Shown in pieces: positions 56,568-64,000 of a stretch of DNA of 64,000 nucleotides. This DNA is from Gillisia sp. Hel1_33_143 (GTDB lineage Bacteria; Bacteroidota; Bacteroidia; Flavobacteriales; Flavobacteriaceae): assembly GCF_900104765.1 (NCBI RefSeq), contig NZ_LT629737.1, positions 1,736,001 through 1,800,000 on the forward strand. The letters are read 5' to 3'. Within the stretch, counting starts at the first letter, position 1. Each line of letters begins with the position of its first letter. The notes below the pieces were generated by a model. The model saw nothing but the letters and a program-made list of their open reading frames with translations. It was not told the DNA's origin and made no database searches. Position numbers and translations under genes: made by a program.

Positions 56568-56918
56568 ATGGAAAGAATTCAGCTGATATTATTTTTAACA
56601 AATATTTAACTATTAGATAATCAGTTAGATAAATCGATTTATTGGATACTTTTTGTGCTAGAAGAAATTAAATAGCAAAATGCTATCAGTTAAACCTTAC
56701 AAATTCTTCTCAAATAATAAATGCTTTGTGTTAGATGTAATATAATTCAGTGAAAAATTCGCATATTTAACTGGATATTAAGATTATAAGAAGATATTTT
56801 TAATTTGAATAGCTTATTTATTTAATAGGTTCTAAATTTCTGAAAATTGATTACTGAAGTTTTAATTAAGATAGAAAACCCTAATAACTAAGCGAGAAAG
56901 GCTTATTATTTTTCAGAT

Positions 56919-56952
56919 TTTACATCCCAACCCTAGAGTTTACACCCCAACC
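56919..56952 (+). promoter_or_regulatory. Two direct repeats upstream of curlin gene 1
   Basis: The 14-base unit tttacaYcccaacc occurs at 56919-56932 and 56939-56952, 20 bases apart, about two helical turns. It lies 76 bases before the ATG at 57028, within an otherwise featureless 460-base gap, and is a good candidate activator site. Confidence 0.55.
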
Positions 56953-57027: not shown

Positions 57028-58188
57028 ATGAAAAAAGTAATTCTAAGTGCTGCAGTGCTCATGTGCGGAGCAGTGATGGTAGCTCAATCCAATTCTAGCG
57101 ATGTAGAGCAATCTGGGATGGGAAATGGTTCTGATGTTGCTCAACAGGGGGCATTGAATATGTCTGAAGTGGTTCAGAAAGGAAAGGAAAATTATAACGT
57201 AGTTAGACAAAGGGGTGAATCCAACTTGTCTGATGTTTTGCAGGTTGGCCCGCGTAATGATAGTTATGTGCGGCAAATTGGAGACGATAATGAATCTTCA
57301 GTTTTTCAAGGAATGCCAGGAAACAGCAGTAAAGATAATTACAGCTTGGTGGTGCAACGTGGGGATAAGAATGAATCTGAAGTATCTCAGTATGGAGATT
57401 ATGGATCAGACTTTAATGATTCTTATGTTAGACAGATTGGAGATGAGAATGAATCTGAGGTTGAACAAGAGGGAGATCTTAATTATTCTAGAGTAAGACA
57501 AGATGGAAACAAGAATGAGGCAGATATTGAACAAGAAGGAGATTGGAATACTTCTATTTCAATTCAAAATGGCGATAAAAATGATTCTGATGTAGAGCAG
57601 GAAGGTGATTATAATTTCGCTAGAACAGAACAACTTGGAATAGATAACGACTCTGATGTTGAACAGGAAGGCATGAGTAATATTTCTAGAGTGTATCAGG
57701 ATGGTAAAAAAAATGATTCTGAAGTAGAGCAGGAGGGAGATTCTAACCGTTCTAGAGTTTGGCAATTTGGAGAAGAAAACGAAGCTATTCTAGATCAGAA
57801 TGGAGATAATAACGTGGCAAAGGTTTACCAAAATGGTGATGAAAACTTATCTGATATTGATATGGATGGAGATTATAACAAATCTTTTGTTTCCCAAATA
57901 GGTTTGGACAATATTAGCGAAACAGACCAAGAAGGAGATTCAAATAGAAGCGAAGTTTCTCAGGAAGGAGAAGATAACGAATCTGATATGGATCAATTAG
58001 GAGATAGAAACAGATCTAGAGTTGTTCAGGGAATGTGGGGTGCCTCAGGGTATTCAAATATGAGTACTGTGTTGCAAGATGGTAACCGCAATACAAGCAA
58101 TGTTCAACAATTTGGAAACGATCATACTAATACGGTACATCAATTGGGTAATCAAAACTCTGCGATGACCACTCAAAGTGATCTATAG
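57028..58188 (+). CDS. Curlin-repeat protein 1 (acidic/arginine-patterned amyloid subunit)
   Basis: A 386-residue exported protein. The signal peptide (MKKVILSAAVLMCGAVMVAQ) is followed by about 32 units of 11 residues with the pattern N-x-S-x-V-x-Q-x-G-x-x, the curlin repeat of CsgA/CsgB in which S, V, Q, G and N form the core and turns. Units 7, 9 and 28 carry inserts. From residue 141 to 250, units alternate between acidic (SDVEQEGD type) and Arg-bearing (SRVYQDG type), so the outward side chains of the two strands differ in charge. There are no cysteines after the signal. A major or minor curli-like fibre subunit is likely. Confidence 0.88.
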   Translation: MKKVILSAAVLMCGAVMVAQSNSSDVEQSGMGNGSDVAQQGALNMSEVVQKGKENYNVVRQRGESNLSDVLQVGPRNDSYVRQIGDDNESSVFQGMPGNSSKDNYSLVVQRGDKNESEVSQYGDYGSDFNDSYVRQIGDENESEVEQEGDLNYSRVRQDGNKNEADIEQEGDWNTSISIQNGDKNDSDVEQEGDYNFARTEQLGIDNDSDVEQEGMSNISRVYQDGKKNDSEVEQEGDSNRSRVWQFGEENEAILDQNGDNNVAKVYQNGDENLSDIDMDGDYNKSFVSQIGLDNISETDQEGDSNRSEVSQEGEDNESDMDQLGDRNRSRVVQGMWGASGYSNMSTVLQDGNRNTSNVQQFGNDHTNTVHQLGNQNSAMTTQSDL

Positions 58189-58290
58189 TAATCTAATTAT
58201 CTTTGTTTTAAGCCAGTATTAAGATAGGATATAGGAAATGTGCATTGCCTAATAATTATTTAAAGTACGCTCGTTATTGGGCATTTTACA

Positions 58291-58327
58291 ATGTTCCTTG
58301 TAGTAAGATACAGGGAACATTTTTTTG
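58291..58327 (+). terminator. Terminator after curlin gene 1
   Basis: Arms atgttccttgta / tacagggaacat pair with one wobble and are followed by seven T residues. Confidence 0.88.
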
Positions 58328-59321
58328 TTATCTAAACTAAAAGTTTTTTCTCTAAATAATAGTTGATGGAAGTATGGGTAAAATAGAAATGAGTTGTTGT
58401 TACCTTCCACTTAATGTAACAATCCTTGTTATATCTATATAAAGACATGGAAGCTTAGTAAACCTAGCAAGTATTGCAATATATTAGATATAAGTGAATA
58501 GATAGAATAAGCTAATGTCCTGTAAATTGAATAAGAATACTAGGTGCTACAATGAAGTACTATTTATGAGTTATTTCTAAAACTGTTTTGGACACCTGAC
58601 GCCGTAATCTAGTTAATTCAAAACTATTTTACATCAATTAAGGATTGGCTTTTGGTTCCGTTTCAGTGGTGTTATCTCAATTGATTCAGAAGAAAATTAT
58701 TTTTATGTTATGCTTTATGTAATTAATAATGAGAACGTTACTTAGCTATTTCCTTCACCTTTTCGAAATTCAATTTTATTTTTTCAACACATTATTAAAT
58801 CTATATAACCATTTATAGAATCTAAATTTAACAAAAAATTAACGTTTCGGCAAATGGTAATAATCTGAGATTACGAGCATATATTTTCTTTCTAATATTG
58901 AATAAGGGGAAAAATCCTATAAGATAATTCTTACAAATAAAATGATCATTCATTTTATAAACCTCAGAGTATTTGATGTTTATGCAATTTATTTAGATAT
59001 TTGAAATGTTGAATTCAAAGAAAAGTTCTTATAATTGCTGATTTAATAATATTAAGCTTAAAATGTTTGATTATGGAATTGTCTTATTTCCTTCAAGATT
59101 TATAATGCTAAATGAAAGTTTCGTTAAAAACGTTCACCGAATTTCTTCCCAGGAAACTTTTGTTTTAACATAACTTTTAATAAATGAATCAATTCGTACT
59201 GCCTTCTGAATTATGTTAAACAATAATCTCGTCCCCTCACGATAACCTAATTAGTTATGTCTTCCAATCTTTTCATTGGAATTATATATATGTCAATTTA
59301 TTAACTAAATATATTATCATT
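58328..59321 (+). other. Long non-coding spacer between curlin genes 1 and 2
   Basis: Nearly 1 kb of AT-rich DNA with stops in all frames and no ATG-initiated frame of note. Near its 3' end are cgtcccctcacg (59230-59241), the near-palindrome ataacctaattagttat and a small hairpin tccaat/attgga (59263-59280) before the ATG at 59322. This spacing is unusual here, where most gaps are below 200 bases; it may hold upstream regulatory sites or the scar of a lost gene. Confidence 0.5.
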
Positions 59322-60638
59322 ATGAAAAAAGTAGTTTTAAGTGTTGCCGCTTTAATGTGTGGCGCAATGATGGTGGCTCAATCCAATTCGAGCACTGTAA
59401 ATCAATCGGGCATGAATAATGGATCTACCGTTAATCAAACAGGCTTAACAAATTTATCCACAGTAGACCAAGCAGGAGACTCTAATGTATCTGGTGTAAT
59501 GCAATCTGGTACTAGTAACTGGAATGATACAGATCAACTGGGAGATGGGAATACAGCATCTGCAACGCAAATGGGTCTTAGAAACGATTCCAGTATACAT
59601 CAAGGTTTTGGTTCTGGATCTTCTATAAATGACGGGAATAGTGCAACAGTAATGTCAACGGGAGATTATAACACTGCTCATATAGATCAATATGGTGATT
59701 TAGATGGTTCTGATGATAATACTGCAAGCATAGATCAAACAGGAAATAGTAACTATTCCTATATGGATCAAAATGGAGATATGAACCTTGCTTCAACAGA
59801 TCAAGTAGGAGATTATAATATTTCATACGTTTATCAATATGGAGATTCCAACTCTGCAACTAAAGTTCAATCTGGAGATGGTAATTATTCTAATACTGAT
59901 CAGTACGGTGATGGAAATAGCTCATCTGTTAGCCAAGTAGGAGATGCTAACATTTCTTATGAAACTCAATACGGAGATGGTAATGCTATTTCCGAGAGCA
60001 TAGAAGGTGATGGTAATTACGTTAGTGCATATCAAAATGGAGATTCTAACTCTGCTGTATTAAATGCAACTAAAAATAATCCTGCTTTCTTCGCAGATAA
60101 CAATGAGTTATATGCAACACAAATAGGAGATGGAAACAATGTACAGGTAAGAGTTTCTGGAGGAGATGATAACTACGTAGATGCAAGTCAGGTTGGAGAT
60201 AATAACTATCACCGTATAGGAGTTAGTGGAAATGATAATGAGGTGACTTTAGATGTGGATGGAGATTCTAACAGAGGTGATTGGAGAGTGGCAGATGGAT
60301 ACCCACCAAATGCAGATGATAACGACGTAGAATTAATTCAAAATGGAAATTCAAACTTTTCTACAGGTAGAGTAATGGGAGACAATAACGATGTGGTAGT
60401 TAGCCAAGTAGGAAACAGTAACAAAGTGGGTAGCGCATGGTATACCGGAGATGGTGTGGTTATAGATGGAGACTTTAACACTGCAGAGATCTTTCAGAAT
60501 GGTGATATGAACATGGCTACTTCATTTCAAACTGGAGATTTTAACCAAAGTTATACAACGCAATCTGGTATGAGCCACACAAGTGCTACAACTCAAATTG
60601 GTAATAGCAATACTTCTTCAGTTAATCAAAGTAACTAA
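59322..60638 (+). CDS. Curlin-repeat protein 2 (Asp/Tyr-rich amyloid subunit)
   Basis: A 438-residue exported protein whose signal peptide (MKKVVLSVAALMCGAMMVAQ) is nearly identical to that of protein 1. It has about 35 curlin units with the same N-x-S-x-V-x-Q-x-G spacing. The central units favour Tyr and Asp (SYVYQYGDS, SNTDQYGDG, SYETQYGDG), and several units around residues 250-350 are irregular, with Q lost (VRVSGGDD, IGVSGND). It ends in SSVNQSN, the same form as proteins 3 and the pseudogene. It has its own terminator. Confidence 0.87.
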   Translation: MKKVVLSVAALMCGAMMVAQSNSSTVNQSGMNNGSTVNQTGLTNLSTVDQAGDSNVSGVMQSGTSNWNDTDQLGDGNTASATQMGLRNDSSIHQGFGSGSSINDGNSATVMSTGDYNTAHIDQYGDLDGSDDNTASIDQTGNSNYSYMDQNGDMNLASTDQVGDYNISYVYQYGDSNSATKVQSGDGNYSNTDQYGDGNSSSVSQVGDANISYETQYGDGNAISESIEGDGNYVSAYQNGDSNSAVLNATKNNPAFFADNNELYATQIGDGNNVQVRVSGGDDNYVDASQVGDNNYHRIGVSGNDNEVTLDVDGDSNRGDWRVADGYPPNADDNDVELIQNGNSNFSTGRVMGDNNDVVVSQVGNSNKVGSAWYTGDGVVIDGDFNTAEIFQNGDMNMATSFQTGDFNQSYTTQSGMSHTSATTQIGNSNTSSVNQSN

Positions 60639-60681
60639 GCGGTAGATAGCTAGTAAAAGAATAATATTATTAGAAATTACT

Positions 60682-60706
60682 AAACCTGCTTCGGCAGGTT
60701 TTTTTA
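60682..60706 (+). terminator. Terminator after curlin gene 2
   Basis: Arms aaacctgc / gcaggttt around a ttcg tetraloop, followed by T residues. The stem is shared in form with the terminator at 62250. Confidence 0.9.
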
Positions 60707-60740
60707 TGTAATGTTCATAGAATCAAATGATAAGATTGCA

Positions 60741-60930
60741 TTTTAACAATTATTTGGGCGTTTTGACGAGTAATTTTTAATAACCCTAAAGTTTGACTTA
60801 GATTCGTCTTGTGATTTTGATGCCCCCCAAGCTACACGAAGATCACTTTTTGTAATACTCTACTATTATAGATAGGTTCATAATTTTTGAATTGAATTTT
60901 AATCAGTTATAAATATAAAAATTAATAAGT
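60741..60930 (+). repeat. Duplicated upstream region, copy A (before curlin gene 3)
   Basis: This 190-base leader aligns end to end with 62314-62504. Identical blocks are ttttaacaattatttgggc (60741-60759) and tgatgccccccaagct (60818-60833), and a strongly conserved stretch runs from ttttgaattga to the ATG. The C-run block is a likely regulator site. Confidence 0.75.
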
Positions 60931-61989
60931 ATGAAAAAAGTAATTCTAAGTGCAGCAGCACTAATGATCGGCGCAGTTACATTCGCTCAATCTAATGACA
61001 GTGAAGTTATTCAGCAACGAACCGGTAATATGGCAGATGTTGTACAAACTGGAGCAATAAATGAGTCTGATGTTTTTCAAAATGGTGATAACAACAAGGC
61101 TTCTGCTACTCAAACAGGTGTGGACAATAAATCAACTATTGAACAAGCTGGATCTCAGCCTTTCAAGGTGAAGCGTAACCAAGCAACGCTTGTTCAAACA
61201 GGAGATAATAATATCTCGTTCGCAAGATCTCAAGATGGAGAAGATAATGTTATTACAACAACTTCAGTTGGTAATGATAACAATGCTTATGTTAAGCAAA
61301 TTGGTAGCCGAAATGGAAGTGTCATAGATCAACAAGGAGATGGTAACATTGCTAGATCAACAGTAACCTTTAGTAATGATAACTCGTCTACTATTTTACA
61401 AGATGGAAATGGTAATGAGTCCAGAACCGCTCAAACATTTGGTCCAGCAAGAGGTGATGGTGGTCTTAATATGTCTTCTGTAACTGTAGTAGGTGATTAT
61501 AACCGTGCATTTACATACCAAGCTGGTGGTGGTAATACATCTATCATGAAGCAAGATGGTAATTATAATTTATCTGTTACAGATCAAATTGGTAATAATA
61601 ACTATGCTAGAACTACTCAGCTTGAAAACACAAGTGATAGCTATATTACACAAACAGGAAACGGAAATGGTGCTGCTGTTAGACAATATGCTAACGATTT
61701 TAATATATCTGATGTTGACCAGGTTGGTAATGACAACAAAGCTAATGTAGATCAGTTTGGTGGAAGCAATGAGTCTACTGTTTTAAGCGTAGGTAACGGT
61801 AACATTAATGACGTAGACCAAGGTCTTCAGAGTATTAGTAATCAAGCAAGAAGTTTTGATTCTGTAAGTGCAATTGATCAACTAGGTGACTCTAACAGAA
61901 CTAGAGTTCTGCAGTTAGGAAACAGCCAAATGAGTTCAGTTATGCAATCAGGTAACGGTAACATGGCAACTGTAAGCCAATCTAACTAA
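60931..61989 (+). CDS. Curlin-repeat protein 3
   Basis: A 352-residue exported protein with signal peptide MKKVILSAAALMIGAVTFAQ and roughly 28 curlin units, some broken by short inserts (SQPFKVKR, QTFGPARGDGG and DQGLQSISNQAR). Repeats are neutral to mildly charged (SDVFQNGDN, SATQTGVDN, SDVDQVGND) and the protein ends in MATVSQSN. The upstream region is duplicated before curlin gene 4. A 17-base-pair terminator follows, so it is transcribed alone. Confidence 0.87.
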   Translation: MKKVILSAAALMIGAVTFAQSNDSEVIQQRTGNMADVVQTGAINESDVFQNGDNNKASATQTGVDNKSTIEQAGSQPFKVKRNQATLVQTGDNNISFARSQDGEDNVITTTSVGNDNNAYVKQIGSRNGSVIDQQGDGNIARSTVTFSNDNSSTILQDGNGNESRTAQTFGPARGDGGLNMSSVTVVGDYNRAFTYQAGGGNTSIMKQDGNYNLSVTDQIGNNNYARTTQLENTSDSYITQTGNGNGAAVRQYANDFNISDVDQVGNDNKANVDQFGGSNESTVLSVGNGNINDVDQGLQSISNQARSFDSVSAIDQLGDSNRTRVLQLGNSQMSSVMQSGNGNMATVSQSN

Positions 61990-62004
61990 TCAACTATAAT
62001 TCTA

Positions 62005-62047
62005 ATCATCAGGAATGCCAAATTTGGCATTCCTGATGATTTTTTTT
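62005..62047 (+). terminator. Strong terminator after curlin gene 3
   Basis: Perfect 17-base arms (atcatcaggaatgccaa and its complement) with a two-base gap at the centre, followed by seven or more T residues. Confidence 0.95.
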
Positions 62048-62060
62048 ATTTCAATAATAT

Positions 62061-62167
62061 ATGAAAAAAGCAGTTTTAAGTGAAGTTACCAATCTGGTTT
62101 AAGTAATCGTAGTACTACAATTCAAATGGGTAATAGTAATGTTGCTAACGTAAGTAAAAGCAACTAA
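62061..62167 (+). pseudogene. Decayed fifth curlin-repeat gene
   Basis: An ATG at 62061 opens MKKAVLS, the conserved signal-peptide start, and then runs into a stop after 13 codons. From 62087 another frame reads YQSGLSNRSTTIQMGNSN then VANVSKSN and a stop at 62165-62167, which is the last curlin unit and the typical C-terminus. The middle of the gene has been lost by a large internal deletion that also shifted the frame. It is followed by its own terminator, so a full transcription unit once stood here. Confidence 0.85.
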
Positions 62168-62249
62168 ACTTGATCTTCTTATACTTTTAAAGTGCTTATT
62201 TAATTTCATACATCATAGTAATAAGAATAGCTATTTTATTATTATTACA

Positions 62250-62278
62250 ACACCTGCTAAGAAGCAGGTTTTGTTTTT
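62250..62278 (+). terminator. Terminator of the decayed curlin gene
   Basis: Arms acctgct / agcaggt with loop aaga and a T-rich tail. The stem matches the one at 60682, consistent with duplication of the whole unit. Confidence 0.8.
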
Positions 62279-62313
62279 ATATAATGTGCATACAATTGAG
62301 TAATATATTTACG

Positions 62314-62504
62314 TTTTAACAATTATTTGGGCATTTGGTCGAATACTTTTTATTACTAGACATGTTTCCCTTAGATTAGTCTTATGATTCTGATGCCCCC
62401 CAAGCTGCTTAAGAATCATCCTTTTTTAACATTCTGTTATTTTAGGTAGTCCCCATATTTTTTTGAATTGAGTTTTAATCAATTATAACTATAAACAATT
62501 AATT
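62314..62504 (+). repeat. Duplicated upstream region, copy B (before curlin gene 4)
   Basis: A 191-base leader co-linear with copy A at 60741-60930. The identical blocks are at 62314-62332 and 62391-62406, at the same distance from the ATG to within one base. Confidence 0.75.
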
Positions 62505-63632
62505 ATGAAAAAAATTATTTTAAGTTCAGCAGCTATCTTATTTGGAGCGGTTGCTTTTGCGCAAAGCAATCAAAGCACCGTAGATCAAGTAGGGTACTCT
62601 AATCAATCAGATGTTCAGCAAACAGGTAGTACTAATGGATCTGCTGTTCTTCAAACAGGTGGGCGTGATGGTGAGACCGCTAACCATGAAGCAACTGTAA
62701 TACAAAATGGGAATGCAAACTTATCTTCAGTAGATCAAAACAATGATGATAACATTGCAAACGTAAATCAATTAGGGGAATCTAATGATTCTGGAGTTTC
62801 ACAAGATGGTTCTTCTAACCTTGCTAATGTAGACCAAGATGGAATTGCTAATGGTAGTACAGTTACACAAGTAGGAGATGCAGGAGGGGCAGAACCAAAT
62901 AACGAAGCTAACGTAAACCAAATAGGATTTTTAAATACTGCTGTTGTTTCACAAACAGGAACATTGAACTTAGGGAATTTAACTCAGAATGGAGATTTTA
63001 ACTACGGTTCTATAGATCAATTAGGAGATGAAAATTCTGCAAACCTTCGTCAGTGGGGTAGTGATAATACAGGATTTCAAATTCAAGATGGTGCAGGTAA
63101 CTCAGCTGTAATGAATCAAGGTGAAGCATTAACAGGATGGGCTAGTTCTCAAGGAAGCTTAGCTCAACAAGAGCAATATGGTAATGACAACATGGTTACT
63201 GTTACCCAAAGAGGAAGCGGTCAATTCTCTTTACAGGCACAACAAGGTGATGATAATGAAATGAAAGCTTACCAAGGAAATGACGGTAACTTTAACAGAC
63301 AAGTACAACTTGGAAATGGTAACTACGCAAATACGCAACAATATTTTAGCTCTAACCAATCTCTACAAGAACAAGTAGGAAATGACAACTGGGCTACTAC
63401 AAGACAAACAGGAGCAGGAGCAGGTTTTAACTTCTCTACTGTATCTCAATTGGGAAATGCTAACTATGCTTTAACCTCACAAAATGGTTTAGAAAATGGT
63501 TCAGCTACAACTCAACTAGGAAATATGCATAATAGTGTTGTGAATCAAATGGGTAGCAACAACTCATCTGATGTACTGCAACAAACTGTAGCATCACCAG
63601 GAGGAGCATCAGGACCAGGACTTCCTCAATAA
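62505..63632 (+). CDS. Curlin-repeat protein 4 (Gln/Asn-rich)
   Basis: A 375-residue exported protein with signal peptide MKKIILSSAAILFGAVAFAQ and about 30 curlin units. They are the richest in Gln and Asn of the set (for example SLQEQVGND, SLQAQQGDD, NRQVQLGNG) and low in charge. It lacks the SQSN end of the other copies, closing instead in a Ser/Pro/Gly-rich tail (ASPGGASGPGLPQ), which could be a recognition or flexible end. It is transcribed from the duplicated leader. Confidence 0.87.
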   Translation: MKKIILSSAAILFGAVAFAQSNQSTVDQVGYSNQSDVQQTGSTNGSAVLQTGGRDGETANHEATVIQNGNANLSSVDQNNDDNIANVNQLGESNDSGVSQDGSSNLANVDQDGIANGSTVTQVGDAGGAEPNNEANVNQIGFLNTAVVSQTGTLNLGNLTQNGDFNYGSIDQLGDENSANLRQWGSDNTGFQIQDGAGNSAVMNQGEALTGWASSQGSLAQQEQYGNDNMVTVTQRGSGQFSLQAQQGDDNEMKAYQGNDGNFNRQVQLGNGNYANTQQYFSSNQSLQEQVGNDNWATTRQTGAGAGFNFSTVSQLGNANYALTSQNGLENGSATTQLGNMHNSVVNQMGSNNSSDVLQQTVASPGGASGPGLPQ

Positions 63633-63787: not shown

Positions 63788-63818
63788 GAAATGCTCGGGT
63801 ACGCCCGATTTCTGATTT
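63788..63818 (+). terminator. Possible terminator after curlin gene 4
   Basis: A stem-loop with core tcggg-tacg-cccga, extended by gaaat/atttc with a bulge and followed by a T-rich stretch. A weaker gggca/tgccc stem lies at 63738-63758. Confidence 0.45.
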
Positions 63819-63919: not shown

Positions 63920-64000
63920 ATGAAAAACTCAATCTACTTTTTAGTTTTTGGGATCTTTTTTTTATTGAATCCATTTACAAGCCATTCACAAAGTCAAACT
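63920..64000 (+). CDS. Start of an exported protein, cut by the window edge
   Basis: The ATG at 63920 opens 27 codons coding a typical signal peptide (MKNSIYFLVFGIFFLLNP then FTSHSQSQT, cleavage probably after SHSQ). The signal differs from those of the curlin proteins, so this is not another copy. From its place after four curlin genes it may be a secretion or assembly factor (CsgE, CsgF or CsgG type), but nothing in the visible part decides this. Confidence 0.6.
   Translation, partial: MKNSIYFLVFGIFFLLNPFTSHSQSQT

Follow-up and report, generated by a model that had tools for sequence, protein, structure and literature searches.

The curli locus of Gillisia sp. Hel1_33_143

The stretch of DNA analysed here (the window) comprises 64,000 nucleotides of Gillisia sp. 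Hel1_33_143 (contig NZ_LT629737.1, positions 1,736,001-1,800,000), and our interest is in an array of csgA-like genes, coding for long curlin subunits, that lies at 57028-63632. The four genes, all on the forward strand, are called here A1 (57028-58188, 386 residues), A2 (59322-60638, 438 residues), A3 (60931-61989, 352 residues) and A4 (62505-63632, 375 residues). An initial annotation of the window had described four consecutive open reading frames (ORFs) of these sizes, built of curlin half-units, and both the frames and their nature were borne out: the curlin profile PF07012 matched A1 to A4 with E-values of 5.9e-54, 1.9e-44, 5.1e-28 and 5.2e-29, i.e., with 97 to 180 bits at a cut-off of 20.7. 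A six-frame search of the whole genome with this profile gave 19 matches, every one of them within the array. The mature proteins (333-419 residues) consist of N-x-psi-x-psi-x-Q-x-G half-units spaced at 11 residues, with occasional inserts. The curlin ladders that had been proposed are thus present, but the proposed number of half-units (about 28-35 each) was slightly too high, as we count 32, 28, 26 and 28 in A1 to A4 by a loose rule (range 26-32), while a scored parse gives 30, 26, 22 and 26, A3 having the fewest regular ones by both counts. Net charges are -49, -46, -15 and -27, respectively, and the mature part of A1 contains 76 D/E and 27 K/R in 367 residues.

All four proteins begin with a common leader, MKK-(V/I)-(V/I)-LS ... 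AQSN (judged by eye). Terminator-like hairpins follow A1 (58290-58321, 13 pairs), A2 (60682-60701, 8 pairs) and A3 (62004-62041, 17 pairs), so that the idea of a separate leader and terminator for each gene holds for these three, but only partly for A4, where the hairpin (63795-63808) has just 5 pairs. Between 56500 and 64000 there are 8 terminator-like sites against 2.9 expected from shuffling (standard deviation 1.9), while promoter-like sites are not in excess there (26 vs. 36.9 from shuffling). The fifth, relic gene that had been suspected could also be found by sequence and frame scanning at 62061-62167 (forward strand), where the start of a leader is joined to a csgA-like C-terminal end in another frame, the body having been lost. 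The relic matches the 3' end of A2 (repeat family D7) and has its own terminator-like hairpin (62252-62269). This hairpin and the DNA that follows it are similar to the interval between A2 and A3: the tract 5' of A3 (60701-60833) is 77% alike over 133 nucleotides to a second copy 5' of A4 (62274-62406; family D11, forward strand), and 36 nucleotides are 92% alike (family D13), which indicates that the array grew through tandem duplication. A motif scan of the long gap between A1 and A2 (58189-59321) gave no curlin relics.

The DNA past the end of the window was examined as locus L010, in which the genes follow in order on the same strand: a csgB-like gene, a CsgH-CsgE fusion (csgHE), csgF, csgG with a beta-barrel and a lipoprotein gene. 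The protein starting at 63920 had been expected to open the secretion genes, for which the DNA beyond 64000 was to be inspected, and this is what we found. Only its beginning (63920-64000, forward strand) is in the window; the whole gene (L010:9921-10448) codes for 175 residues and is csgB-like by position and by weak matches (NF007470, E 4.9e-4). In the CsgHE protein (273 residues) the C-terminal part is CsgE (PF10627, 42.9 bits, cut-off 25, E 6.6e-11), CsgF matches its own profile (PF10614, 134.7 bits, cut-off 25.8, E 2.9e-39), and CsgG (PF03783, 222 bits, E 6e-66) is the sole match of its profile in the genome. The CsgG-type exporter that had been called for is thus present just downstream of the array. 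The C-terminal outer-membrane barrel of CsgG matches PF13505 at 27.8 bits, slightly below the cut-off of 28.7. The lipoprotein (497 residues, L010:13104-14597) has matches to a carboxypeptidase-regulatory-like domain and a TolB-like propeller.

The N-terminal part of CsgHE is best described as CsgH-like, its profile match being below the cut-off (see below). An AlphaFold2 (AF2) model of this domain from the orthologous protein of locus L011 matched CsgH (2n59) at 4.5e-6, with a template modelling (TM) score of 0.65 by target length, and CsgC (2xsk) at 1.1e-5 (TM 0.77 by target length). These are the CsgH/CsgC amyloid inhibitors, and sub-families of CsgH have been described in Bacteroidetes (Taylor 2016, PMC4838910); however, the CsgH-like part is here a single polypeptide with CsgE, a fusion that goes unmentioned in the accessible part of that paper. 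We found neither a CsgH-CsgE fusion nor a csgE frameshift in the literature searched, which leaves out most subscription journals, and the word curli is absent from the accessible portions of PMC3711429, PMC1088944 and PMC5009743 (large part).

To place the locus in context we used 79 named relative loci, a biased sample since they were those most similar in a CsgG search, in which the genes of the operon were called by BLAST at 1e-4. In all 79, csgA, the csgB-like gene, csgHE, csgF, csgG and the lipoprotein gene come in the same order (L013 and L051 are partial at contig ends, and the lipoprotein of L061 is in two pieces). The finding of PF07012 in the four proteins, together with linked csgE, csgF and csgG, identifies the system as curli, and we put at ca. 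90% the probability that we have here a complete curli (type VIII secretion) locus of Bacteroidota in which the gene of the major subunit has been multiplied. Several details weigh against so complete an assignment. The csgB-like protein reaches only 12.4 bits with PF07012, well under the cut-off, although its position is occupied in 79 of the 79 relatives. The CsgH part scores 30.6 bits with NF041112, under the cut-off of 35; among eight other proteins scanned, of which four are CsgH parts or CsgH-CsgE fusions that exceed the cut-off or come close to it, those of L044 (37.9), L081 (40.7) and L086 (38.7) pass and those of L069 (31.8) and L011 (28.6) fail. Besides, the model of this domain matches many further immunoglobulin-like sandwiches. 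One could also think of repeat adhesins or of solenoids resembling ice-binding proteins that use another export route, as solenoids rich in Asn, Gln and Ser do occur in other secreted proteins, but the curlin profile and the linked csgE, csgF and csgG, in an order conserved throughout the relatives, make this highly improbable.

If the steps of secretion, protection, nucleation and stacking carry over from the known curli pathway, A1 to A4 would pass through Sec into the periplasm, where the CsgH part of the fusion would keep them unfolded. They would then be handed to the CsgG pore, capped by CsgE, and reach the outside of the cell, where CsgB and CsgF would nucleate them at the surface and the subunits would stack as beta-solenoids into amyloid fibres. 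Co-assembly of A1 to A4 into mixed fibres would be a further, putative step.

The two-faced charge pattern of A1

The half-units of a curlin solenoid alternate between its two sheets, with positions 2, 4 and 6 of each facing outward (Sleutel 2023, PMC10192328). The outward charges of A1 follow this geometry closely, with an autocorrelation of -0.81 at 11 residues and of +0.90 at 22, values reached by none of 200,000 shuffles, which take no account of the relatedness among repeats. Of 93 subunits, 90 could be tested for charge alternation, and the statistic of A1 (4.22) was the largest by far, the next being 1.46; a threshold of 0.05/90 is passed by three further subunits. Over half-units 7-28, D/E account for 27 of the 33 outward residues of one sheet, which has no K/R among them, whereas the opposite sheet exposes 12 K/R, 8 aromatic residues and 3 D/E. 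The alternation is weak in A2 (p 0.018) and absent, by the same spacing-based test, in A3 and A4.

A recent duplication of 66 nucleotides (22 residues) is not the cause of this pattern, since synonymous codon choice at the N, Q and G of A1 shows no greater similarity inside one sheet (0.471) than across the two (0.493). The charge pattern has been kept by selection. Two results go the other way. A parity test of A1 gave only p 0.014, because the parse skipped one degenerate half-unit, the spacing-based test being the one with a clear outcome. Also, a Foldseek search with the model of A1 returned the Pontibacter korlensis CsgA structure 8c50 first, but not significantly (E 0.32, TM 0.33; none at E 0.001). 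By sequence, A1 matched 8c50 with a phmmer E-value of 4.6e-47, and its AF2 model is the regular beta-solenoid that structure prediction had been proposed to look for, with ca. 30 successive strands, a mean predicted local distance difference test (pLDDT) of 88.7 and a predicted TM score (pTM) of 0.86. A likeness of A1 to gp120 also appeared in weak rows (E 0.029 or worse) and was taken as chance.

The CsgA of P. korlensis (R15.5, 8c50) has 11-residue half-units and the same N-x-psi-x-psi-x-Q core as A1; it has about 20% D+E, with Asp/Glu ladders on one sheet, for which the authors propose lateral packing mediated by Ca2+ (PMC10192328). A1 differs from R15.5, compared here by its description, in having K/R and aromatic residues on the opposite sheet and in being one of four subunits. 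The acidic face of A1 could bind divalent cations or the basic and aromatic face of a neighbour, and we infer that A1 may act through its two faces as a bundling or cross-linking subunit.

Copy number and the role of the array

Among the relatives, two csgA-like genes before csgB were found in only five loci (L016, the second operon of L037, L039, L059 and L066) and more than two in none, although 8 of the 79 have less than 8.7 kb upstream of csgG, too short to show an array of the length found in the window. Curlin repeats together with csgF were found in 6 of the 16 genomes of the genus. The five curli-positive congeners have one csgA each against the four of the window, and the array is therefore an expansion in the lineage of the window. 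Locus L037 (Flavobacteriaceae bacterium RhTr2) carries two complete curli operons in tandem, from csgA through the lipoprotein, within 21 kb.

Multiple csgA genes are not new as such. Bacteroidetes curli can have up to six dissimilar csgA/B homologues, e.g., in Spirosoma, and it has been proposed that the extra dissimilar copies modulate the fibre (Dueholm 2012, PMC3521004). The accessible part of that study describes systems resembling ours in having several dissimilar CsgA-type subunits with csgE, csgF and csgG, up to 22 repeat units and no csgC or csgD reported. The window differs in that four major subunits, all of them long, are encoded in tandem next to the secretion genes, and also in the relic and in the charge pattern of A1. 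According to a later survey, there are genomes with up to 30 csgA copies and subunits of 4-62 repeats, and mixed fibres were discussed there and the docking of different CsgA proteins modelled (Sleutel 2023, PMC10192328). Thus, several or long CsgA homologues in a genome and solenoids with acidic faces have already been published; what is unusual here is four csgA genes vs. one per curli-positive congener, the extreme charge pattern of A1 and the mosaic operon described below.

The modelled docking of different CsgA proteins (Sleutel 2023) makes a composite A1-A4 fibre reasonable, and a composite amyloid of these chemically different subunits is plausible. There are two other ways of reading the array. 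One is that only one or two of the csgA genes are in use, A4 being the likeliest, and that A1 to A3 are leftovers of duplication and exchange on their way to becoming relics, of which the array already contains one. A single csgA suffices in all five curli-positive congeners, A4 adjoins csgB and is the only subunit with a close full-length ortholog, and A3 has the fewest regular half-units. However, none of the four frames (352-438 codons, each with its leader) is interrupted, strong terminator-like hairpins follow A1 to A3, and the sheet-wise charge pattern of A1 has been kept although its synonymous sites have drifted, so that we regard decay of A1 to A3 as rather unlikely. The other reading takes the four as alternative subunits, switched by conditions or by recombination at their flanks, that would vary the surface of the fibre instead of mixing within it. 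The genes have leaders and upstream stretches in common (families D9, D11 and D13), which offer sites for recombination, the genes have separate terminators and the net charges of their products differ (see above), but neither an inverted promoter nor a recombinase was seen among the ORFs in or beside the array, and switching seems to us equally doubtful.

The array has some practical interest. Four long, differently charged subunits that share one pore, with single-csgA congeners as a baseline, would allow a test of subunit mixing in the fibre, and the array is also a natural test of what a two-faced charged solenoid does.

A short motif, CCCCAA, recurs near csgA genes. It is present within 300 nucleotides upstream of 36 of 88 csgA genes, at 1.48 per kb vs. 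0.13 per kb across the loci, many of which are related. In the window the stretches concerned are 56915-56952, 60740-60850 and 62310-62420, and a 20-bp direct repeat before A1 contains it. This motif is a possible regulator site.

Mosaic origin of the operon

By sequence comparison, A4 is orthologous to the only csgA of Salegentibacter echinorum (L012), with 61.5% identity over 374 columns, the next matches among those listed being at about 35-38% (34.8% for the first of them in order of score). The csgHE of the window is 50-52% identical to Bizionia-type loci vs. 37-41% to its congeners. We built careful trees of 30 loci for csgHE and csgG, with approximately unbiased (AU) tests, and quick trees for csgB, csgF and the lipoprotein. 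For csgHE, a clade with Gillisia/Salegentibacter was rejected (p 0.0087) and one with Bizionia was not (p 0.22), while for csgG the clade with Bizionia was rejected (p 2.4e-5) and the one with Gillisia is present in the tree (support 95/91). The test gave p 0.019 against Gillisia for csgB, 0.038 against Gillisia for csgF and 5e-50 against Bizionia for the lipoprotein. These results suggest a mosaic operon in which csgB and csgHE, and more weakly csgF, are allied to Bizionia, and csgG and the lipoprotein to Gillisia.

Some points count against this picture or make it less particular. The csgF value is marginal, the six Gillisia/Salegentibacter rows were not recovered as one clade in the lipoprotein tree (p 0.17), and the clades submitted to the AU test were chosen after the BLAST identities were known. 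Moreover, in two congeners (G003 and G006, loci L090 and L093) csgHE and csgG group with Salinimicrobium and not with the other congeners, their lipoprotein grouping with a congener, so that piecemeal exchange of curli genes is general in this group and not special to the window. We trace the array to tandem duplication plus exchange with other flavobacteria, given the repeated intergenic stretches, the relic, the match of A4 to Salegentibacter and the presence of Bizionia-type csgB and csgHE beside a native csgG.

In Bacteroidota, acidic residues after the lipoprotein cysteine point to a surface lipoprotein. The lipoprotein gene lies 3' of csgG in all 79 relatives. A strict lipobox pattern was found in 16 of 30 sampled leaders, and in 16 of these 16 there are at least two acidic residues just past the cysteine, which by that rule suggests a surface lipoprotein. 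We consider it a candidate for an unrecognised component of curli.

Out-of-frame csgE in Flavobacterium

The csgHE of the window is one frame and has no A-run, but in 13 of the 79 relative loci, all of them Flavobacterium, csgH and csgE are separate ORFs. In each of the 13, csgE occupies the -1 frame and is open from within the end of csgH, and a run of ten As followed by G (A10-G) is found in the overlap. We extended the search to 398 genomes of this genus (that of L069) and found CsgHE in 92; in 44 of these there were two matches, 40 in different frames and four in long single frames of 267-278 codons. After adding 35 further split loci and five fused ones, the set contained 44 distinct out-of-frame loci, 43 of which have exactly A10-G with csgE in the -1 frame (e.g., L057:9220-9230, L069:9227-9237, L088:9028-9038, and 40 more), the remaining one (L159) having A12 and the third frame. 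Among in-frame junctions with A-runs, L060 and L097 have A11, and L095, L096, L098 and L106 have A10 with other flanking bases; 25 other distinct junctions are fused with no run of seven or more. L108, L123 and L164 are single open frames.

Several observations make these split genes look recoded. All 43 loci have an open csgE frame, and over the DNA that it covers the csgH frame meets a median of 11 stops (5-17). Purifying selection acts on csgE: the median ratio of nonsynonymous to synonymous substitutions (dN/dS) is 0.104 for csgE (346 of 903 pairs, those with dS 0.1-1.5) and 0.153 for csgH (230 pairs). Three csgE and three csgH parts were scanned; all of the former were above the PF10627 cut-off and two of the latter above that of their model. 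The csgH frame ends 0-4 codons past the run in 42 of the 43 loci and 10 codons past it in the other, and the split csgE has no room for a leader of its own, so that periplasmic CsgE could come only from a joint product. In 29 Flavobacterium loci (485,742 coding bases) there are 15 runs of at least ten As, and 13 of these are at the csgH-csgE junction. Codon use would not lead one to expect an invariant AAA-AAA-AAG, as AAA accounts for 83% of the lysine codons in the rest of these genes, although relatedness among the genomes means that they are not independent samples. When mapped on a tree of 64 rows, the A10/-1 state requires seven changes, at least four of them forced by well-supported branches, and L088, which has the A10 form, stands among fused loci without the run. 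This suggests that the state arose more than once.

We think it probable that in a large Flavobacterium clade csgH-csgE is a recoded gene, in which a single start and a conserved A10-G slip site would give two products, CsgH alone and CsgH-CsgE, slippage setting how much amyloid inhibitor is made relative to the secretion gate. A sequencing error at the run is unlikely, as 43 of the 44 out-of-frame loci have the same run length and frame, several of them on single contigs of 5-6.7 Mb. A reversible genetic switch through changes in run length is less likely: the run does vary (A11 in L060 and L097, A12 in L159), but 43 of 46 loci share one out-of-frame state, which speaks against a freely switching phase-variable run.

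As to how the recoding would take place, the heptamer A-AAA-AAG is that of the -1 ribosomal frameshift in Escherichia coli dnaX. In the split loci, the 75 nucleotides past the run fold better than shuffles, with a mean z of -1.55 and 13 of 43 loci below -2, vs. 0.04 and 0 of 43 for a control stretch. However, 27 fused Flavobacterium loci that lack the run show better-than-shuffled folding at this place as well (mean z -1.62, 11 of 27 below -2), and downstream structure was rejected as evidence of ribosomal frameshifting; no consensus RNA structure was found downstream of the run (RNAalifold 0.0). Because a ribosomal heptamer would not call for so long a run, and fused relatives fold just as strongly downstream, we favour transcriptional slippage over -1 ribosomal frameshifting, about 2 to 1, as the most likely mechanism. 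In Thermus thermophilus dnaX, nine As give transcriptional slippage (Baranov 2005, PMC1088944). In both dnaX genes a coding A-run gives rise to two products of different length with a common start, as would be the case in the Flavobacterium relatives (and not in the window), but in Flavobacterium the two parts that meet at the junction are an amyloid chaperone and a secretion factor, and here it is the long product that would require the slip. If true, this would be a new way to couple the dosage of an amyloid chaperone and a secretion gate, and these out-of-frame csgE genes would not be pseudogenes, a point of relevance to annotators.

Along similar lines, the linker of the fused csgH-csgE of Aquimarina has an in-frame A9 in L017, L018, L047 and L048 and A10 in L054; slippage there would release CsgH alone from the fusion.

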